The notes beneath the pieces are model-generated. The model had not been told where the DNA came from and searched no databases. It saw only the letters and a list, made by a program, of their open reading frames with translations. This document shows positions 15,441 through 45,153 of a stretch of 64,000 nt of DNA, piece by piece; the first letter of the stretch is position 1, and every line of letters starts with the position of its first letter. The DNA comes from Wuchereria bancrofti (lineage: Eukaryota; Nematoda; Chromadorea; Rhabditida; Onchocercidae), in NCBI GenBank assembly GCA_005281725.1, contig SSBO01000009.1, positions 7,874,303 through 7,938,302 on the forward strand. The letters run 5' to 3'. Both the position numbers and the translations under genes were made by a program.

Positions 15441-18400
15441 ACTGGATTATTTATAAAGTATCTGATATTTGATGTAAATGAAACGGATCAATTATAACCA
15501 ATAAATAAACCATTGACTTATTCTAAAATTCTCGAATATGGCCTTGAAGATAGTCTTTAAATCAAATTTTATTGCTACATATGAAATTAGTAATCGAATT
15601 ATACTCATTGCTAAAAAGATGAAGTTCAACCAATAAGTCCATCATTAAAGTAATCAGGAAAGGAAGAAGTACGAATTTGCTACTTAATTTTATTGCACTA
15701 CAGTAATCAGTGAAGCATACCGTTCATTACTTACTGGAGTACCACATCATCAGTTTTGGTTGCTTCAAATCGGAAGAAGCAGGTGCAGTAGAAGTGGTAG
15801 CATTAACTCGATGCATTGTTTATGGATCTTAAACAAGACTAATTGGTTGACACGAACATTGTACATACAATTCACCAAATGTCATCCATCCAGCAATAGT
15901 AATAATGGAACTAATTGAAATGAGTCTACTTCTCTTATTATGTAATAAAACAAAAGAAAATAAAAAATACATCAAAATCGAAATAAAATAAATTAGTTAA
16001 AATGACAATTGAATTCTTATAGAATTTTGTAGACAAGCAACAAATGTATATTTCAAAAGCAGAATTTCTCAGTTAAATATGTTTTATAATATTTCAAGCT
16101 TATTTATATTTACTAATCTCAATACTAATTGATTAACTGATTTATGCAAAAAATAAAAAATAAAAAAATATGCAGAAAGAAACTTCAAAAAAAGATGAAA
16201 GTTCTAAAAAAATTCACTTAATAAAGGAATTTGCACTCTTTTTTTGAAGTTTAATTTTTCTTCTAAATTCATTCGCAGTTTATAAATCTACAAAATTTCA
16301 TGATCTATTTAAGTATGACAATTAAATTTAATCTAACTGATATCAAAATACGAATATAATCAAGAAATTAATATTTAAAATTTTAAAATATTTAATTACT
16401 TTTCAAAAATTTAAAAAACATAATTACTATATAATATATGATTTACTATTTATTTATATATATTATTATTTATTCTATATAAATATTTATTCTATCTATA
16501 TAAATATAATATATGATTTACTATTTAAAGTATAATGAATTAAACCAACGAACGATCAGTGATTTATTTTTCTTCAGTATTTCTAATAATTCTTATTACC
16601 ATAAAACTATATTAGAGTCTTCGAAATTTAAATTGTACTGTTTTAAATTTGAAAATTTTTAATAAATATAAGTAACTCTCAAATATTACTTTAAAGTTTC
16701 ATTCTTTTATTACACCAAATTTCAATTATTTCTACATTAGATTATCACATTTAACAATTATAAAAACGTTTTTGTCTTTTCATAAACGATATACCGGGTA
16801 AAGGATTGATCCGTGCCAATTAACTTTTGAGTATAATCCATGTGACGGATGATGCGATAATAATACAATTAACCTTCCTTTACCTTCAGGAAATACCAGT
16901 CGGATTATTTCCTGTCGGCTCCTTTGAAAAGATATTATTTTTACTATCTTATTGTATAATAATCTTATTCAGTTGGACCTTCATTTGACAATAATTATCA
17001 CATTTTGATACTAATTATCAACTTTTAAACACTTGTAAAGAAAATAAGCTGTGGTTCAAATTTTTTGAAATTTAATTTAATTTTTTAAGTATAATTTTCA
17101 ATTTATTTTCTTTGGAAGTATTTAAAAGTTGCTAATTAATATTAAGGTGCGATAATTAACGAAAAATGAATATGCTATTGTTATGTAAGTCTTTACACCC
17201 ATTATCAATGTTAATTTCTCTTTGATAAGAAACTGATGCAGTAGTTGAGAATGCTACTTAACTTCGTGTTACCAACACATTACGGTACACGTCGTAACAT
17301 TACGTTGTACGTTTGCAACATTCAAAAATTTCCTTTTTTTTTAATAATATTCACTGATACGTTGTTGTTCTAAATGTAAAAAAAAAATATTTTGTCAAAC
17401 TGAAGTGAGATACTTGATAACATGTTTTAATTTAATTTCACTACATTACAATATTTTGTTTCAGGAGCGTTGATGATGACAAACACTTTTTTTGAGAAAA
17501 GTTTTGTCGAATTTTTCAAATATATTTAGTAATCACAGTGATTAAGCGTCAAATATTTGTCTATAAGTCAAGTCATTTGATGTTAGTAACAAAAAAAAAA
17601 AAAACTATAAAAGACAAATAATAAGAAAATATTTCGGTATAGAGCAGCAACAAATAAGAAAAATGGAAGTGATTAGAGATTAGTTCGTGTAATGAAATCA
17701 AGACTTTGTTTTTAAAGCTAAGTTATGATGAGAAATTATAAACAACATTGAATTCACTAATTAATTCAATCCAAATATCAATTTTAAATTACTTCCTCAA
17801 TTAAATTCTAAATCAGTGCATATAACTTCCATCAACAATACATTACGGTACATCCGGAGTGCATATATTCCATTCAATGTAATTACTTCCTTCCAACTCC
17901 AGAAAAATAATCAGCCTTTCCGGTTTGTAACCAACTGCCAGGTGCATAATTGTTAGCCTCTCAATTAGTATTGCATTGTGAGGGAGGAGAGCCAAGAATG
18001 GGGAGGAATCTGAGTTAGTATGTCCATCCAATCTCCACTAATAATGAACAACAATTTGGCGCAATACACACTCAGTCCCGTATCACAATGGGTGGAGCTT
18101 GCGGTGATGCGGTAGTCCATCCCACATTTATCCGACACATCAGGTTGCAGTTGCCGGTGCTGTGATTGCTTCTGCTGTTGCTTGCTCGTTCCGCACAAGG
18201 CTATTCGTACTGGTTGTCATCTCCCAGTGATACGGTAGCTAATCTCTCTCTCTCTCTTATCAGTGATAATCAGCAAATTCCACCGTGTCGCAAATTCCTT
18301 ACTTACCAAGCAGTTAAAACAATAATGTACTTAGTTATACAGAGATTACAGAAGTACTTACTTTTATGAGTAAGTACGAAGGGTTATTTGGACAGGTAAA

Positions 18401-18442
18401 TTCGATGCGTCAACTGCTGAACGTGTTTAAACGTCTTGAAAT

Positions 18443-19393
18443 ATGCGCTTTCAGATGTTATGCGTTGCGTTACTCATCGATAGATTTCCTTCACCGATAG
18501 GGTATATTCCGTGTTCGGCAACGATACTTTCAAGCTTTATCGAATCAGTTGTAACGGATACTGCACGAATTGTTCCTATAGGCAATCACATTTCCGTATT
18601 TATCCCTGCGACAGAAGACGAACAGAAGGTGAAATTTATGGATGCCGCAATGCAAACATCGCCTGGTTTGTTGCTTTCCTCGAAGGATTTCAAATTTTGC
18701 TTTATGTTTCATAAAATGAATTGAATTTTAGTAACGCAACTTAGCATGTCAATGATAGCTCGACAATTGCGTGATATGGCTGACAGGTTCGAGTACCACT
18801 ACAGTGAGGAAGAACGGCACTCTGCATGCACACCTGCGCCATCATCGCCGCAGTCGCAGGTTAGAATTCGTCACATAATCTCTCGGGAGAACTGACTGCT
18901 CTATGAAGAAAAAATATGAGTCACTCGAAATTAAATAAATCCCACATTAGATTTTGTGTAAACAAAGCAAATCTAATGCATTGTAATAAAGTCCCAATCA
19001 CTCTTAAAGGTTTACGGTTACAATTATTGCGCAAATTGCCAAAAAATATACCATTTGACGCACGTTTCTGACCAATCTACAATGACGCATCATTGAAAAT
19101 TTCTAAATTCTTCACTTTTTCGTCCTGAAAAGATCATTTCAAATGATTATATTTCAAATAATAAACATTTCGTCTTTTAACTCTCAAATTGCGAACTTTG
19201 AGTGGTTCAATACGTCAGGAAGTTTTGATTTGAATTTTGCCCAATATTATGCACTTATCATTTAGGTCAAAACTGAAGTAAATTTCAGCTGCGAAGTCTA
19301 TCGTTTTCAACTTTCGTCCAATTCATTACGAAAAATTTCATCAACGTTTTGCTGGAACGAATATTTGAGCGATTCTATTTGAGGAAAAAGTGA
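18443..19393 (+). CDS. candidate BH3-only apoptosis activator, left-arm copy
   Basis: Predicted exons are 18443-18665, 18732-18859 and 19289-19393, giving 151 residues; phases agree at both junctions (1, then 0). Residues 83-98 (18755-18802) form a BH3 helix, I-A-R-Q-L-R-D-M-A-D-R-F-E-Y-H-Y, with the four hydrophobic positions I, L, M, F, a small residue (A) and the invariant D. It resembles the BH3 of Bim, Bmf and nematode EGL-1. Exon 3 encodes a hydrophobic/amphipathic C-terminus (FVQFITKNFINVLLERIF) ending in basic LRKK, as in membrane-targeted BH3-only proteins. Such proteins bind Bcl-2/CED-9 to release the death machinery. The N-terminal frame is supported by weak similarity to the spacer paralogue (an aromatic/aliphatic-P-C-x-A/T motif, then I-G). 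The ATG at 18443 is the first in frame; a start at 18455 just after a TTTCAG is also possible. No multi-domain Bcl-2 fold is present. Confidence 0.62.
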
Positions 19394-19646
19394 ATTGCGT
19401 GTCTACTTTGTACCTATTTGCGTGATATTTCCGTGTTACACTAACCGTAATAGAGAAGGTTTGGCGATAACACTCAGCGCTATTGTCCCACAGATAATGT
19501 CTACTGGCGGAATGGTAGAAGGCTGTATGATAGAATGAGTCGGCCATCTAATATCACATTTTAATTATCGAATATAATACTAATTATTAATCAATTTATT
19601 TTTGTATTTATTTTGTGTATTAATTGGTGCTATGCAATTTTGTTTG

Positions 19647-19652
19647 AATAAA
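19647..19652 (+). terminator. poly(A) signal AATAAA for left-arm BH3 gene
   Basis: AATAAA lies about 250 nt past the predicted stop at 19393 and is followed by an A run. Its mirror is at 33425-33430. Confidence 0.4.
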
Positions 19653-19861
19653 AAAATATTTAAAATTTTCCTTTACAGCTGTAGAAAGAGCTTTTAAGTT
19701 AACAAAGTGTCGTTAAAATTGAAGCATTTGTTTAGTTCCGAGTTTTGCCGGAGTAAGACAACAGCGCGCAACAGTAGTAACTTGAAGACTACGGTATTAA
19801 TAGCCGAAAGGTTCAATTGTACGGTTAGTGGTTCTATAAATGACGTAATGTGGAGTGACAC

Positions 19862-20016
19862 CTGGTCATTCAACTTTGGCACTTTAATTAATTCAACTGC
19901 AAAGAATTCAATAATCTTAAGCCGAAAGCATTTTTTACTATCATTTACAAGTGCCCAGCAAGTGCTTCCACATACTGACCACTCTTTAGAGTCATTACTT
20001 TGTCCACATTTTTCCA
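19862..20016 (-). other. Cys-rich exon-like frame resembling the start of a TIL inhibitor domain, left-arm copy
   Basis: Read on the minus strand after a TAG acceptor-like site, the frame contains EKCGQSND, KEWSVCGSTCW and KKCF, ending at CAG before GTGTCAC. The spacing W-S-x-C-G-S-x-C resembles the first half of trypsin-inhibitor-like (TIL) cysteine-rich domains of nematode secreted protease inhibitors. The later cysteines of a TIL domain are not present in the following sequence. I found no signal-peptide exon and no ATG in this frame before a stop. It may be one exon of a gene I could not assemble, a decayed fragment, or chance. It is antisense to, and downstream of, the BH3 gene in the same arm. 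Confidence 0.25.
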
Positions 20017-20779
20017 CTATGCAATGATTAATTCGATGAAACTATTTGTTGCGCCACGTGGCAATCATCACAAAAGTATAAAAAAAAGAGAGAGAGAGAG
20101 AGGGAGAGAGGGAGTGAGGGCGAGAAAAAGAGAAAGTGCGGTTGAAAAAAAGATTAGAATTGGAAGTTGTGGAATATGCAAAATTTTGCAAAAAAAAAAA
20201 AAAATCTTAAAAGCCATTTAAGTATTTGTTTACCATTAAATCTAATCTATGCTCCTTTGCTGGCTGACCCATTTGACCTTTCATAATTATGTGAAAGGAT
20301 GATAAAGCATATGGTATTCTGTGCAAGTGGTTAATGGCAGAAATTTTTTTGCACTAAGCTGTAGACTTATGTAAACTAAGCTAACGGTGGACAATAACCT
20401 TGGGACTGGACAATTATCCAGGAAGTCCTTCTAGCTTGTTGTTTTCTCAATTAAATTCACACCTGCGCAAACGTTCAGTGAAAAATGATGGATGAGCAAT
20501 TAAGAGAGATGCATTCACATTTGCGCACTCATATCGAATTACATATTGTTAGGTAAGATTTAGTAGCTCACACTTCTAAATAACATCGTTTAAAGCAAAT
20601 CATTTATCATCTGTGTGTCTTATTTGTTTCAAAGTTAATTAATTTATATGAAAAATTTATAGAAATATAAGGAGTCAATGTAAATGAGTCTTATTCCGAT
20701 ATCTATTTATAATCATGAAGTTAAACTAAGTTTAAAGTCCGAAAGTGATTCACAATAAAGATTATTTCATAACTTTTTT

Positions 20780-21870
20780 TCGATATTAATCATTCTAAGA
20801 AAGAGGTCAAGGAAAATCTGACACAATTAAATTGACAAAGTATTGGGAAATCGATATCCTCTACTAATGATTGAATTTAATGGTGAAGAAATTGTGGACA
20901 GTCAGTAAAACAACTTGACAAATGAAAATCACCACTTTTTCTTTTTTCCTTTCACTCTGTTAATTTGTTCATCCCTTTTATAAAATGATTGTTAATTGAA
21001 GTTTGTTAAATTACTGCCTTCCAGGAGGTCTCATATGAAAAGTTTACCTGTTACTCTTGCTGATGATGCTGTTATTGTCATTTCGGTCTACCTCGCATTC
21101 ATAATCGAACTGGCCATTATTCGACTCATAACTCTCATTCAGCCATTTTGAATGAAATTAGAATGAATAGGGTCTGAATTAAAAATTCATCAAATCGAAA
21201 TGTTTCAGTTTAAATGAGTTGTATTCCCACATCTATTCCACATTAGCTATTCCTTCAATTATAATATCTTTTATTTCATGCATCACTTCTCATGTTAATT
21301 CTTAAAGTTATACATTCGAAATCTTCGGAGGTATTTTTTTCGTAAAGTTAAAAAATATTTGATTGAAATCTAGAAAGAAGATACAGTATTGAGCTGTAAT
21401 ATTTATTCGATAGCTATCAATCAATCTAAGAAAAGGGTCAAAAAAAGCTGTCATTAGTAAGATTCCAATGATATTATGAAATTCGTACGAATCGTTGATG
21501 ATTAAGTTTAATCCAAGAAAAAAAAATTCAACGATCGGCAAAACAATACGGCGAGTGAAAAATCTTTCTCTCACTTTTTCCTCCTCCACTCCGACAACCT
21601 ATCAGATCACAAATGATTCCATTTCGTAATGAATGGAAATGAATCATTATTTGTTTATTGGGTGATCTTATCTGAGAATTTCACCTGAAGAGATCTCATA
21701 CGATAAATTTACTTGTTACTTTTACAATTGTTGTTGTTGTTATATTCCAGTCTATGTCTCTTTCATAATCGGATCGTACCATTTAGGGAATAGGCCATTT
21801 ATTCGCTTCATATATCTCATTCAGCCATTTGAAATGAAAATTCGAATGAATAGAGTTGAAATGCAGCAAA
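20780..21870. repeat. diverged tandem duplication, about 400-bp units
   Basis: About 20780-21180 and about 21400-21870 align in the same order: a CTAAGAAA-GTCAA block, then a purine-rich stretch, CACTTTTTC, a CTCATA block, CTTGTTACT, TTCATAATCG, and finally CTCATTCAGCCATTT-GAATGAA. Indels and many substitutions show it is old. On the minus strand both copies show a similar short frame (K-W-L-N-E then Y-E-x-N), but copy 2 has a stop, so coding is not supported. Confidence 0.6.
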
Positions 21871-22001
21871 GTGATGCAAAATGACAACATCTATACTAAT
21901 TACAAATTAGAATGATCTGTCAAATCTGTAATTTCTTCCTCTAAACTGAGAAAAATTAACGAAATTATTCATCAGAGTTTCTATGATAATTGCTAACAAT
22001 A

Positions 22002-22499
22002 ATGTTAATCCATTTTGAAAGTGAAATAAGTTTTATTTTAAATAATAAATTAACAATGATTAAATCTTCTAATTATTATAATTGTTCCCTCACACTTTCT
22101 TTAAATTCTAATTCCTGTTTCTTTTTAGTCGTTTATATTCATTATATTTACAATTCCTCTAAAATGAAATGGAACACTTTTTACAGTTCACAACAATTAT
22201 CTCAAAAAATTAAATTAATCATTGTTTGCCCTTTTTTTTGGTTAGTTAGAAAAGTGATGAAATTTCGAACTAAATCAAATCAAATAAATTTTTACAAAAA
22301 CTTCATTAGAAATCGTAATAGTAAGCTGATTACGATCAAAAAAAGAAGGAAAAAAGAAAAAGGAAAAAAAGTTATTTATTTTAATGTTTGCTGCGAAAGC
22401 CGCCGTTTCTTTTTGATAGGCAATCACTTCACACTGTTCTTTGTGTCCATAATTTTTAACTTTTTTCTGATATATTACAACGAACGAACGATCAACTAA
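22002..22499 (+). CDS. long AT-biased ORF, 165 codons, doubtful
   Basis: An ATG-started frame without stops for 165 codons in very AT-rich DNA. Composition is dominated by N, K, I, F, S and L, with a lysine run (KKRRKKEKGKK) near the middle and hydrophobic stretches at both ends. I recognise no domain, and the composition is what the base bias alone would produce. A stop-free run this long is unusual here, so it is recorded. It could also be part of a retained or unspliced transcript. Confidence 0.13.
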   Translation: MLIHFESEISFILNNKLTMIKSSNYYNCSLTLSLNSNSCFFLVVYIHYIYNSSKMKWNTFYSSQQLSQKIKLIIVCPFFWLVRKVMKFRTKSNQINFYKNFIRNRNSKLITIKKRRKKEKGKKVIYFNVCCESRRFFLIGNHFTLFFVSIIFNFFLIYYNERTIN

Positions 22500-22550
22500 T
22501 AATCATTCCTTCTCACTTTGTCGCTATAATCAACCAAATATACCGCAAAA

Positions 22551-22603
22551 ACACACACATACACACATACACAGGCATAGACGCTCAGACACACACACAC
22601 ACT
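22551..22603. repeat. interrupted CA microsatellite
   Basis: A run of (CA)n with TA, GGCATAG and GCTCAG interruptions. Confidence 0.8.
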
Positions 22604-24777
22604 TACTAAAAGTATTATTCAGTGGAGCATTAACGATTTCTTTTTGTTGGTAGTCATTTAAGAAATAATTTTTTTAACACAACTTGAAAATATTGGGTAA
22701 TAAAAGAAAGATGCAAATCTTTTTCAAGTTTATTTCATTTTTTTTTAAAGGTTTCTAATATTTTACTTATTTTTTAGAGTTAACGGAATAATATTTCGTA
22801 CGTGAATGATTACGTTGCACTATCTCGTATTCACTTCCTATATCATTTATATATTATTGGCTGCATAATAGCCAATTTATAAAATATTGAAAAATATTAT
22901 ATGAACTTACTATGAGTAGATTTAATGAATTCTTAGTTAATGAAATAATTTAATTCAGCATAAATTACAAATGAAAATATAACAAAGATTAATCATGCTT
23001 GAAATATTCTTTTTCAAATGCAAATTAAATGTCAATGCAATAATATTTGTTCAAGAAGAGAAAGATTAATTTGTAAAAATAATCTAAATCAAATTTCGAT
23101 TACAATTATTCAATCATTGAACATATTCATCTCCATCATTTATCTTTTCATTTATCTTTTTCATATTCATTTATTTTTTTAAAAAATGTCACATCAAATT
23201 AAAGCTTATACTTTGCTGCATAATGAGAACATTCGAATATTGTTCGAAATAAGAATAAATTAACTGATACACTTGCTTTTTTTTCTGATTAATTATAAGA
23301 TAATTTTCGGTTGTAAGATAATTCAAATCACTTTTAGAAATTTCACAAATAATTGCTGAATAAAAAAAAAATTCGAAAAGAGATAGAAAAGACAATAAAA
23401 TTTACAAATAAATCGAAATGGAAAGAGTAATAACTGATAGCATTTGCATGATCATTTCTAAATATTCCTTCCTATTGTATTACTGTTCTTTTACACCTAA
23501 TTTTGAAGTAATCTGAGCAGTAACTATTCCTGCAAGCATAAAAGAAATTTTAAAAATTATAGATTGCAAGAATGATTCAAATCAATTTTACTAACTATTT
23601 TTCTGTTCCATTGTGCAGAGCAAAGAATAATTCATAAATGGAAAAAAGTATGTTTTTCTAAAAACTCGCAGCATCTTCCCAGATTACATCTTTTGATCTA
23701 GCACTGAACATTGAAGTTTCATCAAACAGTTCATTATTTTTAAAATGGAAAGTTCCAAGTTTAATGAATTTTCGCTTCATAAAATGTCAAAAATACAAAT
23801 GAACTTTACCCTTCATGCTCATTAATCTCATTATAAACACCTGCTACAGTTTGCTGTAAGTATGATAAAGTAAGCTTTGAAGTAATCCGATAATTGTATG
23901 AATAATTTGGAATGTATTGTTCTCAAAGTAACACTAAGCTTATAGGTCTCGTATAATTTACTTCCATACAATGAAGTATTAATTGTTCAGGAAATAGAGG
24001 TTACCGGTTATAACTATATCACAATTGAATTGTTTTTCTTTTCATCTCATAAATTATAACAATTCAGTGTTCCTTTCACCTTCCTCATCCCAAAGTCCAG
24101 ATGACCTTTAGTGGTGCTAAAATGAGTGACCAAATTAATAAGCAAAGTTTATAGTACTATTTAACTAGTAGTTAATGGAATTAATAACTGTTGCTCAGAA
24201 TGACATTCCATCGAATGTGCCAAATTGCTATTTAGCATATGTTCAAATACATTTGATCTATTAGTCTAAATAAAGAAGGAAACAGCTTGTGCTACATAGG
24301 ATCATTTTACAGTAAATGTAGTAAGTGAATGGTAATAAGCTTTTCTATTCAATTATAATCAGATTGTTATTTGAACTATGACATAGCCTTAAATCGTTTT
24401 TTTACAACCTTTCAATTAACTGATGTAAATTTAATTATGATTTCCATATTAAATTTTAATCCCGAAAATTATTGACAGATTATTTTCATCCATTATAAAA
24501 TGAAATGGCAACCGGCAGTTACATAATTCGAAAAAGTGCATTAGATTAAGAGAGTAAAATTACGTAGAAACGAATATTAAAGCTAATCTTTTTATCTCTC
24601 TTACTAACAATTTTTTTACATTTATGCAATTTCACTTTTCTAGATTGTACTAAAAAGCAATCAATTTTTTCTTATTAAAATACGTTTTTTTTTCATGTTC
24701 TTTAAAATAAGTAAAAATTGTGAACTATCATTCATCTAGCAAATTACCAATATTCAGTTGTCACAACTGTCGTCACA

Positions 24778-24866
24778 ATTCATCCGTCCAGTTGATGCCG
24801 TTTGCGCATTTTATCCATCAGTGGCAATTTGTTATTCTCTTGGAGTGGAAAATAGGACGGATGAAT
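24778..24866. repeat. 12-bp inverted repeat with 65-nt loop
   Basis: ATTCATCCGTCC (24778-24789) is the exact reverse complement of GGACGGATGAAT (24855-24866). GTCAC-like and GTGAC-like blocks flank it outside. It could be the termini of a tiny decayed element or a structured RNA. No coding. Confidence 0.5.
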
Positions 24867-25498
24867 CATCAGCTACCGTGACAAAACTCAGATATGTCTG
24901 TGTTTAAAATAGCTGATAGTCTGTCCATTTCCTTCCATGCTGGAAAATATTCTTAATGGGTGCAAAGGGGATAAAAATGTCATTTATGCAAAATTTAAGA
25001 TAAAGAAGAAAAAGACATGAAGACGCAACAAGCTACATTCTTGCTGCTAATGTATCGATGACATCACTCATAACGGCAAAACAATCAACTCATCCATATA
25101 TATTATTAAAAGCAGCAATTACAATCTATTCACAGAACACATTCTTTCCTGAAGCACCGGACACTACCATTGTTATCATAAAAAGTGTGCTAAACTCATA
25201 AAAATATGCATACAAATTGACGAACATACAAAAAGATAAATTGATGAAGTACAACAAATTAGTCAACATATACAGATGAAAAAATATATGCATAAACCTT
25301 CAATGTACGATAAGTATCCCTAAAAAATTTGATAACAATTGAGGAAACACGATTATGATAATAAGAAGTAAAACTGTGGTAGAATGAGAACGTTGCTTTC
25401 GTATATAATTAATTTATTAAACAATACCGGCCAACTAGCAACTATTATCAACAATGTGATTCCCCCACATTCAACATGTCAATTCAAAGAGAACTTAC

Positions 25499-26217
25499 AA
25501 CAAAAGCACCTCTTTTTCCCCGATCTTTGTAAGCTTTCTGAAATTTAACTTCAAAATTATCAGCTAAGCGTTGAAGCTGCTCAGCAATCGCTCGCGCACT
25601 CCATTCTTTTTGTTTTCCTGCACAAAAAAACTGTTAAAAAACAACCAATAAAACAAAGATCTAATGAAAATATGATCTATTACACTTCAGTAAGAGAAAC
25701 AAAAAATTAGATATTGAAAAATGAGAAAAAAAAGGGAAAAAGCCAGGTACTACCTTCAAAATTCCTTGTATCCAACTTGCTGATGATCTTCGCCGACTTA
25801 GCTTCATTGCTTCCAAAGCTTATGCCAAGAAAAAAATTTTTCCCAATAACCAACTCATTCTCTTCTTCCATACAATTTCCTTGTCCCATTCTTATGCAGC
25901 CCTAAAATGAGTGAGACTTATTTGATCAAAATGAAGAAAAAAAGTAGAATAAGTAATATCATAATGAATGAAACTCAATCACTTTCTTTGTTACCTTTCC
26001 CCTCTTATTTTTGAATCAGATGAAGAGAAATAAGGATGTAAGTAGTTCATTTGCAACAATCAAGATAAATTAAAAATAAATTGACCTGATAATGTTTTAT
26101 CTCTAAGCAGCATTCTGCATGATCACCAAGAGACATAGCAGTATCACAGGGGTAAACTGCTAGAATATGCGAATAGCTCAAATAAGTATTGTCAATAATA
26201 CCACCAGTGTAATGCAT
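25499..26217 (-). CDS. candidate BH3-only gene in the spacer, 3' exon not identified
   Basis: Three exons join in frame: 26217-26086 (44 codons, ATG directly after a TTTTTCAG acceptor), 25901-25754 and 25617-25499. Residues 104-119 (25588-25541) read I-A-E-Q-L-Q-R-L-A-D-N-F-E-V-K-F, a complete BH3 consensus with I, L, L, F at the hydrophobic positions, then A-D. The exon is entered in phase 1 and left in phase 0 at a perfect GTAAGT, exactly as in the arm genes, which argues for common descent. Without splicing the frame stops within six codons of the donor. By analogy a short C-terminal tail exon is expected lower in the spacer; I could not identify it, so the listed end is the last supported exon. 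The intron between exons 1 and 2 has no counterpart in the arm genes, and its donor (GTCAAT) is weak. Confidence 0.6.
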
Positions 26218-27399
26218 CTGAAAAATAATTCAAAATACAATAAATTCAAAATTACGTCATCGACGAAGAATATTTGAGAAAAAAAAAGAAAACATGAGAA
26301 AACAAAAAATCATTATCTAAACATTCTTTCTATTAAACTCTACATTCTAATTAAAAAAGAAATACAGCAGAATAAATAAGGCTGCCAATATGGTTCATAT
26401 ATCATTTTCTCGCTTACATGAACTGTCTAAACTATGATTAAACAGTCATACTATTTCATGTATTTTTTATTAGCTAATTCAAATCATATTTTAAATTGAA
26501 TTTTAGGAACTATCTACTAACTTTTTTTAAGAACTTTTTTTGTTCTACATGTTAAACTCTTAATGATACATCATAAAGCTTCTTTGTCATTTTTGACACA
26601 GACATGTTCGAGACTAAATCACTACACATTTGTTACCAACTGATTAGTCGAAACAAAAAATAAAAAACTTTTAATGATGTATTGCAACGTATCTATTCCC
26701 AAGGAAGTTTATCCATTTATCAGCAAACCTAAATAAATAAATTAATATATACATGCAAGTGTGTGTATGTGCGTATGTTTCTGTATTGTATGAAGGGATA
26801 TCTTTGTTAATAATTAAATTATTGTTTACCAACGAATATTGTTTTATGGCAAATCTCATATACCTATAAACCCATTAATTGCTAGGCTAAACTACACTTT
26901 CTTGGCTTTCAACTGTTAATATTTACCATATATAAAAAAGAGGAAAATTTAAAGTGAATTTTGAAGCTGCCCCTATACAAATACCCTGAAATGCTAACTC
27001 AAAAATAACACTTTGTGAAATTATTAGAAAGCACAAAATAGAAAAATTAACTAAATTTAATATCGGCACAAACAGAACAACACGTGGTGTGGTACAAAAT
27101 ATAGAACAAAATTTGCACAGTACAAAATACTGTCGGGGAAACAGAATAGTACAGCATAGCATAGAGTATAAGTAACTCTGAATAATTCAAATACTTCTTG
27201 TTTTTTGTTATTAAAATTTTTAGAAAAAAGTCTTGCATTCATTAACACTATGAAAATTTTTTCTAAAGCATCTTTTTTTCTAAAATTTCTGAAACATTTC
27301 TTAATTCTAAAACATTTCAATTCAAATCGTTATTTGCACTATTTTGAAATACTTTTTATAGTTTGATAAACTCCCAGATTTCCCTGCAAATATTAGCAC

Positions 27400-27640
27400 T
27401 TAGCAGTTGACAATGAGACAACGGGAAATCTCGGTAGAATGATTCCAAGCACCAAATCCATACAAATAACTTGTACAATCACGCTAAATCGTTGACAATG
27501 CACGCATACATGCATGGGGGCGGGCTTGTTTTTTCGCGCAATTTCACGCTCGTGAGATTAATTCAGTGCTGATTTCACTACGGTATGCAAATTGCTCGTC
27601 TCACACCTCAAGGAAGCAAGAGCTTTGATGATTTATCATT
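27400..27640. promoter_or_regulatory. GC-richer block with GC box and octamer, possible control region of spacer BH3 gene
   Basis: It stands out from its AT-rich surroundings. It contains a GGGGGCGGGC box (27516-27525), an exact POU octamer ATGCAAAT (27585-27592) and two copies of GTTGACAATG (near 27405 and 27491). It lies about 1.2-1.4 kb upstream of the first recognised exon of the minus-strand spacer BH3 gene, so it could be its promoter or enhancer. Motif presence alone does not prove function. Confidence 0.3.
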
Positions 27641-29290
27641 AACAATCAAATTACTCGCTATTAAATTGACTTTATTTAGAAAATCCATTATATATTATCT
27701 GTTTATTGGTCATAGAATGAACTATCTTTCTTTCCTGACTGGTTGAATTGCAAGCTAAGGCACTAAAATTACTTGTTCTTAAGCGATAGAGATTTATCGA
27801 TAATCTTTTTCTTACAAAAAAAAATATTTGACATTTGCTTACAATGCTGGCAGCTCAATTGTTCCATTGGTTTTCTTTCTTTTTTTCTTTTAGTAACTTT
27901 ATTTTCCTATCATGAAGTCAACGATCATTTTTGGAATGAAATAATTCCAAAATCTTTAATCTTTACCTATTCGAAAACACTGAACACTACAGTTCATCAC
28001 AATTGATTCTCTTGGATGTTTAATTTTCATTAACAAAAATGATTTATTAGCAGATGTTATTATAATCAATATGTATGTAATTTGATATTTAAGAAAATAG
28101 GAATGCTTGGTACTTGCAAAAATGTTTTCAGAATAAATGTTTCTTCACAAAGGATGGATGATTTGATGCTATTTATAGTTCCAGGAAAAATGAAGCTTCT
28201 CTCATCTTTCCATTGCAATACTCCCAGGTAATTTCCCTAATTACTGAAATAATAGAAACATAAAGTCATTGGATTGGGTCGGTCGGTATCTGAGAAAGCT
28301 GTGTCCTCTGTTGTCCTTCTACCCATCTGTCTACCAATTAACAATTAACTGTTCTCTGCTAGATGAGATTTCTCCGATAAAGAATGGATTCTCTCACGCT
28401 AAATAATGACAAAGATAGCGCTGATCAGCTGACCAACCTGATTTACCTGAGGTTAGAGTTAATCAATTTGTTTCCTTAACCACATGTAATTCGAGCTATT
28501 TCTAAAGTTTTAAAATTATTAATTATACTGTCCCTTTTTTAAATGACATCAAATGAATTATATTATATCGAATTTTGATAAATAGTTGTTGGCACTGTAA
28601 AATAGTTGATAAATTCTTTTTTTTAAACATTTCCTTTTCAATCATCTCGCGCAAATTTATTCCTTCTTCAATCAAGCGCTAATATAAGTGACAAATTTTC
28701 AAAGTAACGATATCATTTTCAAATAATTTCGAAATTTTATGACAACAATTAGCTTATAGCATTTTGTGAATTAATTCTTTCTTTTTTTTTCAGTTAGTAA
28801 GGAAACAAAACCAATAACTGTTCAGATAGCTGTTTCATGAGCTTTGAAAAAAGGCACTATTACATCAATGATGCAAACGAATGGTCATTGGATGAAACGA
28901 TGATAGCAATGACACTAGGAGATGGCAATTAAATATTTGGAAATTCACTAAATGATCGACATTCGGTCATTTTAATTGAGGACAAACAAAGAAATTATAT
29001 TTTGCTAACCCACCGAAAAAAACCGATGGGCATATCCGTTAGTCATCACTACTAAAGCATTTAAAAAAAATCACATTTGCATAAAATTGCAACAATTTCT
29101 TTTTTTTTGATTGAGAAAGAAAGGGTTTGTTTTTGGAAAAAGGACAGAAAGGAAAACTGAAAAGATACACTTTAAATTTTTTCCCTTTTTTTCCGAAATC
29201 TAATCGATGTTTATAACAGAAAAAAAAAGTGAAATGTAAATTGTATTAAATTTGTGAAAAAGAGAAAAAAATTAAATTGTAAAAGGGCAA

Positions 29291-29460
29291 ATATTAGCAT
29301 TTAATGAGAAATTGCTGGCCAAATATAAATGATTTTAGTGCTTCTAAATGACATTATATTAATATTTAATTAGAACTTATTGGCAAAATATAAAGGATTT
29401 TAGTGCTTCTAAAAGATCGTATATTAGCATCTAATAAGAATTTATTGACCAAATATATTT
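29291..29460. repeat. 65-bp tandem repeat, about 2.6 copies
   Basis: Units start at 29291, 29356 and 29421, each beginning ATATTA-[GA]-[CA]-AT and containing CCAAATATAAA-like and GATTTTAGTGCTTCTAAA blocks. Diverged; no open frame. Confidence 0.7.
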
Positions 29461-32400
29461 TACAGGAGCCTAAATTATCTTAAATTTTCTAATCTTTTAC
29501 TTTTCTTCTTGTTTTTTTTTTGTTATATTAGGAATAGAGTTAGTTCATTTCAGTTAAACTGTATTTGTGCATATTTAAACTACCTCAGTGTGTCAATGCT
29601 GTATTGAAAAAGCAAAAAACAAGTGAAAGAAAATATAATTATATAACAAATAATTATATAATTGTGAAGAAATTTCTGACTTTAACAAACTTTTCCCTTA
29701 CACTATAAAATTTATTACCGAATGAAACTTTAAAATTTTTTAATTTTCAAAAGTTTTTTCCTTTTTCCAGAACAAATATCTACTAAAACAAAAATTTATT
29801 TAGCAGTTTTTCGTTATTGGTTTGTAAAAATTGAATTCGAATTTATTTTTCAACTTTTTCACAAAAGCTTTTATAGCAAAAAACATTTAAAAAAGCCGAA
29901 TTTGTTCATTTCTTTGGAAATTTATTCTTAGTCAATAAATTTTATAATAAATTCAAAATAGTTTGATCGATGTATTAGAACTTCAGCTTCATCCAAAAAA
30001 TGTCAATTCAATTTATGGCCAATGACAATTTTTATAGAAGAAAGGATTGTGATTGGCATGATATGGCTCGTGTAGCTTTTCTGTCATAATTTCATTTGCT
30101 CTAAAAAAAAAAGAAAAAAACCCAAAAACACATTAGATTCAAATTAAGTGAGAGAAATTTTGAAATTTATATTCATCTTGTATTTCATTGTTTTTGTAAA
30201 AAACTAAACAAGAATAAATGGATGAGAAATTTAATTGAATTCATAAACAATTAGATTAGTTAAAGCAAAAATCAGTGGATGTTCCGACCAATGAAACTAT
30301 AAATAATTCGAAATCAATACTATAATACCTCAAAATTCATAAGTTTTTAGTTTAGGAATCTAAAGCTAACTGTAAATATATCACAATAACATTGATATGA
30401 AATTATTTTATTGTTGATACTCTCTGAGACACTGTGACATTACTCGAATGAGCATGTAAACTGTTGAAGGTCATCGGAGCAGAGATGGGATAAGGCAAGG
30501 AGGCGTCAAATTGTTATAATTCGATGTAGTGGAAAGGAAACAACTCAATTATGGATCGTTGAATCAATTGTTTCGTCGTATTTAGAAGGGTTTGTGCTAT
30601 TCTTATCTTCTAAATAACTACTTTATTGTACGGAGATAAATTATATGAGATACAATTGAGTACGTCCTCAAAACAACACAATCTACAATTATCTATTCGA
30701 TAATCGCCTTACTTCAAAGCTTACTTTACCATACTTTGCAAGTACTGTAACAGGTGCTGCACATAGCACAGTATCGTTGCAATAAGGATTAGAGATATTT
30801 CTTGCCATTTTATCCAGCATAAATCTCTGAAATTTGGAAATCTGTTTTCCAACAAATTCATTGATCACTTGATTTAATTTAGCTTTAATTTTGCCATTCC
30901 CCTCACCTATTTATTATTTATTTATTATTATTAATTATTTTTATTGTTATCATTATTTTTATTATTTCATTATTACTGTACTGTCATTGTTTTTATTAAT
31001 ATTTTTGTTGTTAATATTATTACTACAGCAATAACAAAATTAGTACAAACACTACCTTTACTTCAAGTATTGAAGTTATTCAAATGATCAGTGAAATTAT
31101 CATTCAAAACTAATTTGTGCGAAGCATGGATAAGAATAAGATGGCACATTGATAATAATATCGGAATTATTTTATTGTTGAAATACTTAAATACTTTGAA
31201 GTATAATGGATATTCTCCATTAAGTATATTTCAAATATGTCTTAGCTTTGAAACATTCCATCCTCTATTTTTCACTTCTTTATTCTTTTTTTCTCATTTT
31301 TGTTTTATCTTGTAACATCCAATGATTTCATATTAATGTTCCGCTTCGAATATGAAATATTAAAGAAATTGTTTTGAAACTATCATTGTCCTATCGTAAT
31401 CAAATAAAATAACATTTCTGAAGAGATCCTTTCTATTGTTGTCCAATCCACACTACTCTTTGTCCTATTGTCACCTTGTGAATTCAAAGAGTACCAATGA
31501 TTATACCAATTGCTATCTATCATTTCATATGTTTCCTAATTAATTTAATTTTGAGATTTGTTCAATTTTATATTCTTTTCATTCATTTAACCCTAACAAA
31601 GATAGTTATTAGAAATAAGCAAATTAATGAGTAGCAATATTCATTCAATTGCTTATTGAATATTGCTTCTTCATTAAAGGATAATAATTTAATATCAAAA
31701 AGCAAATTTGTAATTCGAAAGAAAATCCATGCATTTGCTGAACTATAACAAAAGTAAAAATTAAGATAAAGATTTGAAGGTACTGAATTGAAGAATTTTT
31801 TTATAATAATTTGTAAGTGAATCTCAATAAATATATTTGGATGTATTAGAGGATTGAAATATATTGAACAATAAGAAATATTACTAAATTTATTAGTGAC
31901 CAATAGAAGTGCGTTGGTAATTCGGACGATGCTAACACTGAATTATTTTTTGCTGTAATAATGTATTCCGATAAATTATTATTCATCAAAGGCAATCGTT
32001 AATGGTTGAAGGAGTATTGATATTGAAAATTGTACGTATGCCTTATATCGATAAAAAATGTACGAAGTTCGACATAGCAAAAAAGAAAAAACCGCCTGAG
32101 AAGTTTTTTGAATATAATCATTTATTAGTTGTATGTCATTATGGCCTTGAATGGAGTTTTTCGCTTCGCAAATTTACTTAATTTGTTTTATAAATGATCA
32201 AAATATTGGGTGAAATTAGATAGAATAGTTATGCTATTATAAACATTCTTTGCAAGAGAAATTTATATTTAACAGTTCTATTTAGTTTCATCGCACTATT
32301 AAAGCACCCCACTGAATCTTCGAAAGACCACTTATATTATGATTGATAGTTTCAGTATTCCTGAAACCATAACAGAGTATTTTGAAATCCTAACTGATAT

Positions 32401-33060
32401 GACATAGATTAACAACAAATATTATATATAGAGATTTTCACATTAGAGAACTATTTCGAGTTTTAATTGATAAATGATTTGCTTTAAACGATGTTATTTA
32501 GAAGTGTGAGCTACTAAATCTTACCTAACAATATGTAATTCGATATGAGTGCGCAAATGTGAATGCATCTCTCTTAATTGCTCATCCATCATTTTTCACT
32601 GAACGTTTGCGCAGGTGTGAATTTAATTGAGAAAACAACAAGCTAGAAGGACTTCCTGGATAATTGTCCAGTCCCAAGGTTATTGTCCACCGTTAGCTTA
32701 GTTTACATAAGTCTACAGCTTAGTGCAAAAAAATTTCTGCCATTAACCACTTGCACAGAATACCATATGCTTTATCATCCTTTCACATAATTATGAAAGG
32801 TCAAATGGGTCAGCCAGCAAAGGAGCATAGATTAGATTTAATGGTAAACAAATACTTAAATGGCTTTTAAGATTTTTTTTTTTTTTTGCAAAATTTTGCA
32901 TATTCCACAACTTCCAATTCTAATCTTTTTTTCAACCGCACTTTCTCTTTTTCTCGCCCTCACTCCCTCTCTCCCTCTCTCTCTCTCTCTTTTTTTTATA
33001 CTTTTGTGATGATTGCCACGTGGCGCAACAAATAGTTTCATCGAATTAATCATTGCATAG

Positions 33061-33215
33061 TGGAAAAATGTGGACAAAGTAATGACTCTAAAGAGTGGTC
33101 AGTATGTGGAAGCACTTGCTGGGCACTTGTAAATGATAGTAAAAAATGCTTTCGGCTTAAGATTATTGAATTCTTTGCAGTTGAATTAATTAAAGTGCCA
33201 AAGTTGAATGACCAG
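33061..33215 (+). other. Cys-rich exon-like frame resembling the start of a TIL domain, right-arm copy
   Basis: Mirror of 19862-20016 with identical translation. It follows an ATAG acceptor-like site and ends at CAG before GTGTCAC; the entry phase would be 1. The upstream frame is open only from 33036 and has no ATG. The same caveats apply as for the left copy. Confidence 0.25.
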
Positions 33216-33424
33216 GTGTCACTCCACATTACGTCATTTATAGAACCACTAACCGTACAATTGAACCTTTCGGCTATTAATACCGTAGTCTTCAAGTTAC
33301 TACTGTTGCGCGCTGTTGTCTTACTCCGGCAAAACTCGGAACTAAACAAATGCTTCAATTTTAACGACACTTTGTTAACTTAAAAGCTCTTTCTACAGCT
33401 GTAAAGGAAAATTTTAAATATTTT

Positions 33425-33430
33425 TTTATT
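33425..33430 (-). terminator. poly(A) signal AATAAA for right-arm BH3 gene
   Basis: Mirror of 19647-19652, about 250 nt past the stop at 33684. Confidence 0.4.
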
Positions 33431-33683
33431 CAAACAAAATTGCATAGCACCAATTAATACACAAAATAAATACAAAAATAAATTGATTAATAATTAGTAT
33501 TATATTCGATAATTAAAATGTGATATTAGATGGCCGACTCATTCTATCATACAGCCTTCTACCATTCCGCCAGTAGACATTATCTGTGGGACAATAGCGC
33601 TGAGTGTTATCGCCAAACCTTCTCTATTACGGTTAGTGTAACACGGAAATATCACGCAAATAGGTACAAAGTAGACACGCAAT

Positions 33684-34634
33684 TCACTTTTTCCTCAAAT
33701 AGAATCGCTCAAATATTCGTTCCAGCAAAACGTTGATGAAATTTTTCGTAATGAATTGGACGAAAGTTGAAAACGATAGACTTCGCAGCTGAAATTTACT
33801 TCAGTTTTGACCTAAATGATAAGTGCATAATATTGGGCAAAATTCAAATCAAAACTTCCTGACGTATTGAACCACTCAAAGTTCGCAATTTGAGAGTTAA
33901 AAGACGAAATGTTTATTATTTGAAATATAATCATTTGAAATGATCTTTTCAGGACGAAAAAGTGAAGAATTTAGAAATTTTCAATGATGCGTCATTGTAG
34001 ATTGGTCAGAAACGTGCGTCAAATGGTATATTTTTTGGCAATTTGCGCAATAATTGTAACCGTAAACCTTTAAGAGTGATTGGGACTTTATTACAATGCA
34101 TTAGATTTGCTTTGTTTACACAAAATCTAATGTGGGATTTATTTAATTTCGAGTGACTCATATTTTTTCTTCATAGAGCAGTCAGTTCTCCCGAGAGATT
34201 ATGTGACGAATTCTAACCTGCGACTGCGGCGATGATGGCGCAGGTGTGCATGCAGAGTGCCGTTCTTCCTCACTGTAGTGGTACTCGAACCTGTCAGCCA
34301 TATCACGCAATTGTCGAGCTATCATTGACATGCTAAGTTGCGTTACTAAAATTCAATTCATTTTATGAAACATAAAGCAAAATTTGAAATCCTTCGAGGA
34401 AAGCAACAAACCAGGCGATGTTTGCATTGCGGCATCCATAAATTTCACCTTCTGTTCGTCTTCTGTCGCAGGGATAAATACGGAAATGTGATTGCCTATA
34501 GGAACAATTCGTGCAGTATCCGTTACAACTGATTCGATAAAGCTTGAAAGTATCGTTGCCGAACACGGAATATACCCTATCGGTGAAGGAAATCTATCGA
34601 TGAGTAACGCAACGCATAACATCTGAAAGCGCAT
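33684..34634 (-). CDS. candidate BH3-only apoptosis activator, right-arm copy
   Basis: Mirror of the left-arm gene: exons 34634-34412, 34345-34218 and 33788-33684, with the BH3 core at 34322-34275. The predicted 151-residue product is identical to the left copy as far as I compared. Both arm genes are transcribed towards the spacer, so they are convergent with respect to each other. Only about 350 bp upstream of the ATG is shared; beyond 34983 the 5' flank is unique to this copy, so the two genes could have different expression if distal elements matter. An in-frame ATG lies at 34622. Family reasoning and uncertainty are as for the left copy. If the palindrome is an assembly error, only one of these two genes is real. 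Confidence 0.6.
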
Positions 34635-34983
34635 ATTTCAAGACGTTTAAACACGTTCAGCAGTTGACGCATCGAATTTACCTGTCCAAATAACCCTTCG
34701 TACTTACTCATAAAAGTAAGTACTTCTGTAATCTCTGTATAACTAAGTACATTATTGTTTTAACTGCTTGGTAAGTAAGGAATTTGCGACACGGTGGAAT
34801 TTGCTGATTATCACTGATAAGAGAGAGAGAGAGATTAGCTACCGTATCACTGGGAGATGACAACCAGTACGAATAGCCTTGTGCGGAACGAGCAAGCAAC
34901 AGCAGAAGCAATCACAGCACCGGCAACTGCAACCTGATGTGTCGGATAAATGTGGGATGGACTACCGCATCACCGCAAGCTCC

Positions 34984-37900
34984 TCCTTCCATTATAGCGA
35001 GCTAAAAACGATTGAAGTAGAAAGATAGAAAAGAATGAAAATGATTTATTATCCAAATATTTAATGTTATTTGCGAAGCGGAATTATTATTCCATTTCGT
35101 CTGCACTTGGCTGTTTCGATAATATAAAGCAGTTAGTAAGCGCTGTTTATGTAATATTGACTTGTTTATACTTCGATCACTGCAATCTTCAGCATTTCCA
35201 ATTTTTTGAAAATGATTAGAATAGAATAATTAAAGCACCGATTTAGAGCTAATTTACAGAATTGATCCGATTTTATGTCAAGGAACTCAGTGATTTTATC
35301 TACTATTCGTCCTAATCAGATTGTCAATCTGATTACAGCTTGTCCTTTCTGAGTTTGCATGCAAATTATTTGAGTTTATTGATAGTAAAAGTATTACTTG
35401 TTATTCTTCTTTCTATATTTGTAAGAATTAGAAATCTTTGAAGACCTATTTTTGAGAATATCGTTTATTGTTCATGTGCTTCAAGCATCATTGCCGCATT
35501 TTCACCTTAGCATAGATTAGATTCTGTCAAGCGTTAAATACCAATCTCTTTGATTCAGTTGAATAATTTCCTTTCCGGAATATTTCCCGGATCAGGATGA
35601 GAATGCAATTAAAGGTAGCAAAATGCGATAATTGTTTGCAAATAAATGTATAACGGGGAAGTGTAGCATAGATGGATTATCCGTAATAGACCATTTATGG
35701 CGGTTAAATAAAAAATGATGACATTTTTGAAGAAAAAGCCGACAATTTGGTTGATAAAAAGTAATTAACTTTAATTTGATAGATAAGGGTCATATTACGG
35801 TTTCAATTACGTTGATGATATTATATTACGGTGTCAATAAGGTAGTATGTATAATGATTGGCGCATCGATCAAAACAGCTCATTAAAGTATTAATATATA
35901 TAAATATTACAGATAAAATGAAGGTTCTTAAGCCATTCTCGCTTTTTCCTAATTACTCTTCAATGGTTGTTATTATATCAGGTAAACAATTCGAAGATTT
36001 GAAATAATCAAATGTAAATATGAGTCATACAATCAGTTATCATAACTGTAACAGTTAAGTAAGCAAAATTGCCATGATGAACAGTCTTACATAATTAAAT
36101 GCAATTAAATCTCTGTCACTACTCCATTAACCAACTTATCCGATATAATTACTTTTGTGTTAATTTCGCTAATTATTCATAGTGTGACAAAATTTATTTG
36201 AAATTTCTTTTGGTATCTCTTCAGCGGATGCCATTATCATTTCGCTTAACTTTTTTCATTTTAAATATTATCATCATTAAATGGCATGTTTATCGATAAC
36301 TATATCACTTAACACTTTCATGATTTACTTAGTATTTCCCAGCTTTACAGATCTTTTAATTGATTGTAGATTAATTATTTGTTAATTATGAGGTGACTCG
36401 ATCAGTCCTTCTATGTACCATTTAATCTCATGAAGCCAATTATATCATTGTAATAGTATCGAATCTACAATTTCATCTTTTACTATGAGCGACTACTGCG
36501 CCTCTTTCATAGTGCGACATATTTCACGGTGCTCTACAGTGCACAGAATTAGCACCTCAAGGATTACTGTAGTGCATCCATTTCTTTTTTTTAAAAAAAT
36601 TATTCAACATTGTATCTGATGAATGAGAAGTCAGGAAATCTGGCTCAAGAAAAGTATTAAACCAAAAGTTAATAGAAAATCTGACTCAAGAAAAACATTA
36701 AATCCAAAATTAAAAAAAAGCAATTCTGATTATTATTTCCGTATATAAAACTGAAACAATTCATAGAAAATGGTTACTATCGCAATAGGAACATGAAGTA
36801 AAATCTTTCTTATTATTCTTAGAAAGATAAAAGAGCCTAGCAGTTTAATACAAGTGGGGAAAAGGCGATGTTGTCATTACAAACAACTTAAGCCTCTAAT
36901 AAATTAGCCTGCCTCTTTTAATCTGATTAGGTTAGCCAATTTTAGACTGTCTCACAAACAAATTCCTTCTTGGCTCATCCTATCGTCCACTTATTGCCAA
37001 ATGATGATGATAAATATTTCATCTAATATGCCTCAGACATGTAGCAAATGTCCACTTCGTATTAATTCAGTTTTTGAGTCCAAATTAAAATTAATTTATT
37101 CCCAATTTAATTCTAAAATATTGACAAGACTCACGATAAAATAATTTGAAGATTGATTTAAAATAAATAATTAGCTAATAATTTAATTTGCTACATAAAA
37201 TTTTTTTTTCAAGATCATAGTTTGAAAGTGAATCATCCAAGATTACGCGGTTTGGATTAAAAGCGTAATTAAAATAGAAACTTGCAAAAAAATATTTCAA
37301 AAATAAGCAAAAGTTTTTTACTTTTTCTTCGAAATTTTAGCAATTGTTAAGTAATTATTTAATAAATAGATTTATAATACTGTCAATTTTTAGTGGATTA
37401 TTCATGATAAGCAATTGATATGTTTGAGTGAAAAAATGTACTGTAAGAATACGAGTAGTTGATGCAAAAATTTAATTTTGGAAGAATAACAAATCAATGC
37501 AATATCTCTAAGAAGCAAATAAGGTAAGCCTATTTGTTAGTATTAATAATATGATGTGGAATATTTGAGATAATTACTTTAGACGCTTAATTATCGAAAC
37601 AAAAAAAGCATTTGGTTTTTTTCGTCATTATTTAGGATGGAAATATAAAGAATAGAAATGATTTAGAGCAATTAAAATATTTCAAAAGATACCGAAATGT
37701 GGTAATTTGAAGCGGTAACATACATGAATATATGAGTGAAAAAAGAAAAGAGAAGAAGGTTAACAAGACTATCTTACGAAAGAGATAATCATAGAGCGGT
37801 GAACAATCTGTAGAAGCTCTCGATTAGCAGAAGATGTCAAATGTCATGTCATGTCATATCATCCGAGGACACATCTCCACATCATCTTTTTACCTTTTCC

Positions 37901-44600: not shown

Positions 44601-45143
44601 ATCATCCGAATTACTGGCAGTCTGAGAAAACACAAAAGCATCAACCATTTGATCTTTGTTTGTTTCTGCTGCACTATTATTAGACGCAACAAGCGGTTGT
44701 ATCAATTTCTGTCCCAAAATTTGATTTGCATAATTTTCAAATTCGAATAGAACCGATTGTTGAGCTCCAGTTTCAGAAGCTGTTTTACAATTTGGCGTAA
44801 CGCACGGTTGTTGAGCGTAGAAATTATTTTCTTGTTGAAATATATTCTGACTTCCCAAAATTGAATTTGTATGTATGCTTGCCGTTTCTGCAACATCAAT
44901 AAACGGAAATCCTAGTTGGAAGCATGTAGTATTAGTATTAGATATTTTTTCCGGTACATTCTGGCGTTCGTCATGATACATCAGATCTTCTTCAAGCATC
45001 AAACTGCATGGATTTATTGCTTCCTGAATTTGTCTATTACCGTATCCGGATGTAAGCTGTTGCAATTCTGAATTACCAGATGATTTCCCATCGCATAAGT
45101 CAACATTACCTTCTGATCTTTCATCATTCATCTGATCCGCCAT
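41691..45143 (-). CDS. large intronless, largely disordered protein of unknown function (1,150 residues)
   Basis: A single uninterrupted frame of 1,151 codons in this stop-rich DNA is certainly coding. I chose the ATG at 45143 (MADQMNDERS) because a TTTGTTTCAG acceptor ends 2 nt upstream of it; the five extra upstream codons would lie inside that acceptor. There is no signal peptide and no obvious membrane segment. The N-terminal half is rich in N, Q, E and S. A fairly ordered-looking segment lies near residues 270-330 (VFIGLQYIDGKLFNVIGG). About 610-770 is basic and K/T/S-rich (KTTKKTIPATGTKK), followed by an acidic region. The C-terminal ~110 residues are Q/N/G/S-rich with QWKGQFGAMYSDVPEEY, a short poly-Q near 1114 and a basic tail (GHRKRNKRNKKPRNW). 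The basic, Q-rich tail suggests nucleic-acid or RNP association, but that is inference. I do not recognise the family. Confidence 0.9.
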   Translation of the reverse strand: MADQMNDERSEGNVDLCDGKSSGNSELQQLTSGYGNRQIQEAINPCSLMLEEDLMYHDERQNVPEKISNTNTTCFQLGFPFIDVAETASIHTNSILGSQNIFQQENNFYAQQPCVTPNCKTASETGAQQSVLFEFENYANQILGQKLIQPLVASNNSAAETNKDQMVDAFVFSQTASNSDDQQAAISDDGISKSVENFHQQLQIEKQEKLWTLCDNESSTRNETKMNENELNDNTDKNSENRDSGHQQLEKCEVTSTEQQHSVNENVVPEDFTANTVFIGLQYIDGKLFNVIGGLSNLANDCKQRFHLPIARYQKLQSTGILDEILHLVPESNEQLQETPFNAEFCETDHSEELTAKEIHAELEYSMPGIIPEIENIKVIHHITEEIPLVQNKPERTFLGENCSENEGFVIEQKQTNYINEPTELLISECDPENARQEILREEVERGKEFLPSTVEERSDNMKSVQVMKNFEDISKIQNEHKQSVECEKLQEQLLCERQQKKIANVEIEKNIKNPSKLLGLIPDERETEVSEANTLVYESARVSEEERKSDLTSNISDNKCEIYNQEGNENIAVDNAIIIRKSIESFGSANMREEKNNGSLQNELKNVNKDVTTSLKPTIKTTKKTIPATGTKKVSTMTDAMSPISKDVKKTNRMMTDRKSVTKLAVTLPSVSIARNIKLKEKKNCEAELKHTKNGNAKILKSNITSTVTSKITQKKLHESVNFGKIQLNNNAKVNMKNKPKDIIKDYRKITKEMENNEKALIGKVKKIGIIDLEPLVWTETLMPAYEQIWENCESVNQIIDNKTNIGFEEKIENEIEKELKTDAMVADVESNNMESMWQLKKNSEFVEIEVTKSIILSERNEINAPQCFALSNNNEEEIIEDSSDCLKISEQNENVVIEEEIVVKDSSSEKHEIEISSTVAIKSSEATELSLKMNSKIPLEQKTSDTMMGQKLNLSGIQNEIEADAKDGTGEMIIDGKEEMIPSEKEKLEVKVARNNNGEESSRTGKKELALAGSGSEQQTQPELEINDGRRHHGEKSHSKNYQWKGQFGAMYSDVPEEYMHNTAGKDNSRKQQETGGQQNYSHQVYGKFSDNIELKDNYQQQQSENQNHSRKQQQQQPGDTNSGCNQNYSGQQGHRKRNKRNKKPRNW

Positions 45144-45153
45144 TACTGAAACA
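45144..45153 (-). promoter_or_regulatory. splice or trans-splice acceptor just before the start codon
   Basis: TTTGTTTCAG on the minus strand has its AG at 45147-45146, leaving two nucleotides before the ATG at 45143. This fits spliced-leader addition or a spliced 5' UTR exon. Confidence 0.6.

Follow-up and report, generated by a model that had tools for sequence, protein, structure and literature searches.

The stretch of DNA analysed here (the window) covers 64,000 nt of contig SSBO01000009.1 of the filarial nematode Wuchereria bancrofti, whose assembly totals 86.5 Mb. It holds a palindrome with one gene copied in its two arms (the arm gene) and a different gene in the spacer between them (the spacer gene). 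An earlier note, made from the DNA letters, had pointed out that a pattern typical of BH3-only cell-death proteins is encoded twice in the arms and once in the spacer. With the pattern written as IAxxLxx[ML]ADxF, we recovered three occurrences in the window, at precisely these places, and none in 150 dinucleotide shuffles of it. Regarding the three separate loci that had been proposed, the three sites are there but they amount to only two distinct genes, one being present in two identical copies; the arms being copies of each other, two of the three occurrences are independent. A stricter generic BH3 pattern likewise gave three occurrences (shuffles: mean 0.2, maximum 2), and a loose one gave 7, which is within the shuffle range (mean 3.8, maximum 9) and hence no enrichment, so that the case depends on the complete pattern and, chiefly, on conservation. 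Both are likely to be filarial BH3-only genes, i.e., two paralogues, with the arm gene found twice in the assembly, whose products would bind CED-9-like proteins as activators.

Each gene is composed of three coding exons with GT/AG borders and a preserved frame (Table 1), encoding 147 amino acids in the arm gene, identical in both arms, and 137 amino acids in the spacer gene. The location of the motif in small exons with frame-keeping splice sites, as previously described, holds for both genes, and the same exon joins recur in annotated relatives. Altogether, these sequences support the view that the motif belongs to real, conserved and spliced genes. Both window genes fit the BH3 positions (hydrophobic-x3-Leu-x2-hydrophobic-small-Asp-x-hydrophobic) without any gap, and in both proteins the highest hydrophobic moments fall on segments overlapping the BH3. 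As the intron preceding the BH3 exon is in phase 1 in the arm and spacer genes alike, and as 7 of the 12 residues of their BH3 cores are identical, an old tandem duplication is favoured as the origin of the two paralogues. In Loa, the contigs given for the two genes have the same length, 226,058 bases, and linkage is thus probably conserved. The TTTCAG sequence found right before both start codons would be expected with a trans-spliced leader or a non-coding first exon.

Database searches with the arm gene retrieved 17 relatives, among them proteins from Loa, Onchocerca (two species), Elaeophora, Litomosoides, Cercopithifilaria, Acanthocheilonema, Dirofilaria and Brugia, the closest named one being Brugia malayi Bm10621 (97% identity); judging from these sequences, the arm gene spans filarial genera and is not special to W. 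bancrofti. For the spacer gene, relatives were found in Brugia pahangi (two models, this species providing the closest named relative with 80% identity) and Loa loa (one model). Loss of the BH3 frame in sister species had been named beforehand as one of the outcomes that would speak against these genes; what we found is its retention in 15 of the 17 arm-type and all three spacer-type relatives, the two arm-type exceptions (P0017 and P0020) being models which have exon 1 and not the BH3 exon. Within the proteins, the BH3 12-mer has a mean column identity of 0.99 among six arm proteins (the window protein and five others) versus 0.82 elsewhere, and among the three spacer-type proteins 10 of its 12 positions are invariant versus 64 of 125 elsewhere.

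In comparisons with known peptides, the spacer peptide matched seven PDB sequences, of which the best four are PUMA BH3 peptides (E 0.35-0.92) and the other three correspond to two chains labelled Bcl-2-like protein 1 and a cilia protein. With a joint profile, PUMA or BMF accounted for 6 of 8 PDB matches, and with the Loa relative of the spacer gene, PUMA accounted for 6 of 12, including the top two. As controls, the reversed spacer peptide had a single match, a ribosomal protein, and the EGL-1 peptide from Caenorhabditis elegans matched EGL-1 only. In Pfam, PUMA, aligned over the BH3, was the sole match of the Loa relative at E<=1, with E 0.066, which falls short of the curated cut-off; three further relatives scanned with it had either no match or unrelated families below cut-off. 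PF00452, which covers the Bcl-2 fold with the other BH domains, was not matched in the Pfam scans of the window proteins or relatives. For the spacer gene, its Loa relative and the joint profile, the nearest matches of known function thus appear to be mammalian BH3 peptides, the likeness being weak. In the low-confidence AlphaFold models of the two proteins, the BH3 lies within a long helix (residues 76-101 and 95-129), and the equally low-confidence arm-protein model has a C-terminal helix in addition.

Regarding possible partners, two tandem genes of the Bcl-2 family (CED-9-like) are present on C1 of the same genome. With their exons joined by eye, the resulting sequences matched structures of C. 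elegans CED-9 along their length, with E 6.8e-19 and 2.2e-16, and both proteins keep the SYGR motif. An SDHC-like (PF01127) exon (L002:2849-3223) adjoins one of them and recalls the cyt-1/ced-9 operon of C. elegans. The existence of two BCL-2 paralogues in filariae has been reported previously (PMC7456325). A caspase domain was also found in this genome. Together with the conservation of the genes and the recurrence of PUMA and BMF, the two CED-9-like proteins lend support to the BH3-only-like identity that had been put forward.

Both products are short, probably mostly disordered proteins with one amphipathic BH3 helix. This helix would fill the groove of a CED-9-like protein, the invariant BH3 Asp pairing with the Arg of the SYGR motif, and CED-4 would thereby be freed to activate the caspase, as with EGL-1 in C. 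elegans; the hydrophobic and basic C-terminal segment of the arm protein may help membrane localisation. EGL-1 and CED-13 likewise are short proteins with one BH3, encoded by two genes in a genome providing a CED-9-type partner, and the BH3 of EGL-1 has the same spacing (h1-x3-h2-x2-h3-small-D-x-h4) as the filarial motif. By analogy with EGL-1, we infer CED-9 binding and a cell-death function for the filarial proteins. An orthology with EGL-1/CED-13 is not proposed, for want of any match: EGL-1 (1ty4_C), which is in the PDB set, was matched by none of the arm, spacer, joint-profile and Loa queries, and no named Caenorhabditis protein was among the matches of the protein searches, which need shared exact 5-residue words and could miss such relatives (the direct comparison being with EGL-1). 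As the EGL-1 control peptide matches only itself, the spacer motif and the joint profile appear nearer to mammalian PUMA and BMF than EGL-1 is. PUMA (BBC3) and BMF are the closest solved BH3 sequences to the filarial motif, with E 0.1-1.2 and no likeness outside the BH3 region, a common descent being unproven.

Several observations weigh against a BH3-only assignment. Every single PDB or Pfam match is weak (E 0.07-1.2). With the arm peptide by itself, no PDB chain was matched at E<=10, so that recognition of the BH3 in the arm gene rests on the joint profile. With this profile, an ESAT-6-like protein ranks second in the PDB search, and among the PDB matches of the Loa relative, SH3BP5 comes third and fourth and kinesin chains are also present. 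In Pfam, the window proteins gave nothing but unrelated families below cut-off; such matches, in the window and among relatives, include DC-STAMP, which reached 0.077 with the arm peptide and 0.021 with P0006, as well as a peptidase domain in the spacer protein (0.038) and a sorting-nexin domain in P0001 (0.046). Some relatives carry automatically assigned names that are unrelated (MACPF, DUF1768, COesterase, RNA helicase, viroplasmin), these having no Pfam domain on record. The AlphaFold models have a mean pLDDT of 42 and 37. Outside the BH3, ARIVPIGNHISV in arm exon 1 is fully conserved too and KNFFLGI-FGS in spacer exon 2 is conserved as much as the BH3, both being unexplained. Finally, an exon-by-exon search for NB-ARC (CED-4) gave none at E<=0.001, for which short exons are perhaps the cause, and the 7-mer seeds of miR-35, bantam and miR-2 are absent from the four regions searched, including both 3' regions.

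The weakness of the single matches, together with the shortness and degeneracy of the BH3, whose loose version is not enriched in the window, would be accounted for if the likeness were due to chance and these genes encoded conserved filaria-specific proteins with an unrelated amphipathic helix. However, two neighbouring genes share the full motif, with 7 of 12 core residues identical and a phase-1 intron just before the BH3 exon in each, few stretches of either gene are as conserved as the motif, and PUMA and BMF peptides recur among the matches and are absent with the reversed control, all of which makes a fortuitous likeness very unlikely. The BH3 evidence would fit equally well proteins binding CED-9-like partners through their BH3 in a non-apoptotic or modulating role, e.g., in mitochondrial dynamics, or a pair in which one paralogue is a decoy; the further conserved block outside the BH3 in both genes is in line with this idea, and roles could be divided between the two CED-9 paralogues. 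Nevertheless, among solved sequences the BH3 peptides of PUMA and BMF, which are killers, come nearest, and short proteins with no recognised domain have the architecture of BH3-only activators, so that we consider this alternative improbable, if less so than chance, and favour two BH3-only activators.

Sayonara of Drosophila is likewise a BH3-only protein restricted to its lineage and recognised from sequence, in ecdysozoans that had been believed to have none; it belongs to the coiled-coil family PTHR21974 and gained a BH3 (PMC10107002), whereas the filarial proteins are short and have no recognised domain. According to the available excerpts of a 2022 survey, BH3-only proteins are known in C. 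elegans and not in other branches of nematodes (PMC8998228), and in those of a 2020 survey of nematode BCL-2 proteins, EGL-1 and CED-13 are the only nematode BH3-only proteins named (PMC7456325). Among the matches listed in open-licence PMC (bioRxiv being outside this scope), we found no description of filarial BH3-only genes, nor any paper citing Bm10621, LOAG_14077 or LOAG_13087 by gene name. We thus appear to be dealing with a new conserved filarial family of BH3-only-like proteins, of a known kind and with new members, whose mechanism is modelled on that of EGL-1. These genes would supply the missing death trigger, make a two-by-two pairing of CED-9 and BH3-only paralogues directly testable and give access to the way in which filarial cells die, also upon the loss of Wolbachia, for which extensive apoptosis has been reported in filariae (PMC3207916).

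The coding exons, motifs and palindrome arms are collected in Table 1.

Table 1. Positions in the window of the palindrome, its genes and their BH3 motifs.
Feature	Position	Strand	Remarks
Palindrome arm A	18094..20609	+	2516 bp, sharp edges; probably original copy
Palindrome arm B	32468..34983	-	zero mismatch to arm A; probably derived copy
Arm-A gene, coding exon 1	18455..18665	+	TTTCAG splice acceptor immediately 5' of ATG
Arm-A gene, coding exon 2	18732..18859	+	carries BH3 motif 18755-18790
Arm-A gene, coding exon 3	19289..19393	+	conserved C-terminal tail, hydrophobic and basic; ends with stop
Arm-B gene, coding exon 1	34412..34622	-	identical to arm A
Arm-B gene, coding exon 2	34218..34345	-	BH3 motif 34287-34322
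Arm-B gene, coding exon 3	33684..33788	-	ends with stop
Spacer gene, coding exon 1	26086..26217	-	TTTCAG splice acceptor immediately 5' of ATG
Spacer gene, coding exon 2	25754..25901	-	
Spacer gene, coding exon 3	25484..25617	-	BH3 motif 25553-25588; 3' end uncertain
BH3 motif, arm A	18755-18790	+	IARQLRDMADRF
BH3 motif, arm B	34287-34322	-	identical to arm A (IARQLRDMADRF)
BH3 motif, spacer	25553-25588	-	IAEQLQRLADNF

Regarding the palindrome, a base-by-base comparison returned exactly the outer limits given in the earlier note, 18094 and 34983, and a repeat search extended the arms to 18091-20609 and 32468-34986, with a sole base difference at 18093. The inverted repeat is free of mismatches over its 2516 bp, introns and flanks included, with 11,858 bp between the arms. 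Such identity would mean that the event is very recent, that gene conversion is still going on or that the assembly is in error. The absence of any mismatch, even in introns and flanks, and the abrupt edges are what would be seen if arm B, and with it the third copy of the motif, were an artefact of assembly; however, the arms join different sequence at their outer and inner edges (the 3-kb sequences beyond them have only short common matches, at most 46 bp) and the same would be seen after gene conversion or a recent duplication, so that an error seems to us less likely than not. Of the two arms, A is the probable original and B the probable copy, with a start near 34983: in the upstream frame, arm A encodes M-G-G-A, as do B. 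malayi P0019 and D. immitis P0014, whereas arm B encodes M-E-G-G-A, and the argument turns on this one codon. The arm-B copy comprises the entire coding region together with 361 bp preceding its start codon. Elsewhere in the genome, a nucleotide search with the arm, which skips simple repeats, detected one 55-bp stretch on C8 (84% identity). Protein searches of the same genome (E<=10) gave no arm or spacer match beyond the window's own exons; as these searches score few candidates, and as the arm protein missed the spacer gene and vice versa, a diverged third BH3-only gene located elsewhere would escape them.

A broader and more speculative scenario, which we hold to be rather unlikely, is that filariae kept an older, Bim/Bmf/PUMA-like death switch than C. 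elegans, with two CED-9 paralogues paired with two BH3-only paralogues, one of the latter having a motif-BH3-hydrophobic-tail layout and possibly being LC8-tethered, and with the arm gene kept or amplified in this lineage by a gene-converting palindrome, which would raise BH3 dosage. Bim and Bmf are LC8-tethered, and both pair their BH3 with a C-terminal hydrophobic segment. At the end of arm exon 1 (window 18641-18661), D-x-x-M-Q-T-S occurs in the window protein and 13 of the 17 relatives, being absent from the three Dirofilaria models and P0018. Compared with the LC8/DYNLL consensus [D/S]K x [T/V/I] Q [T/V] [D/E] (PMC3078936), it fits at D-4, Q0 and T+1 and fails at K-3, T/V/I-1 and D/E+2, and so falls short of it.

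Concerning the gene models, the third exon of the arm gene is common to 7 of the 17 relatives (P0006, P0010, P0011, P0012, P0015, P0016 and P0019), and the different ends of the others are attributed to read-through at the donor or to models that are incomplete. For the arm gene, a further coding exon upstream, of the B. malayi isoform a type, was rejected, that frame having a stop in both arms; D. immitis P0015 also has a different upstream part. The upstream part of isoform a (P0019) is signal-peptide-like, and its counterpart region in the window, 18088-18454, is probably not coding in either arm, owing to these stops. In the spacer gene, a GTAAGT donor lies just upstream of the stop in exon 3; an extra C-terminal exon was considered from three candidate acceptors, giving the tails GYLSYIEGLCIYFFICIC, ERMCSVNRL and HGRKWTDYQLF, the relatives supporting none of these. 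ARIVPIGNHISVFIP, encoded at window 18563-18607 in exon 1 of arm A and in the arm-B copy, is near-invariant among arm relatives, on a par with the BH3, and matches no known domain, and the KNFFLGI-FGS block lies in the 25859-26026 region, in spacer exon 2 (25754-25901). The 6-mer CCGGTG occurs once in the 3' region of the spacer gene and once in the arm 5' region, counts to be read without a chance comparison.

Among the neighbouring open reading frames, no Pfam match exceeded the cut-off other than that of an exon with a calponin-homology (CH) domain close to the window's left end (2803-2988, minus strand). A 1156-residue open frame (41694-45161, minus strand) had no Pfam match at E<=0.01. Finally, the palindrome spacer contains three tandem 65-bp AT-rich units (29291-29485), the third being more divergent.

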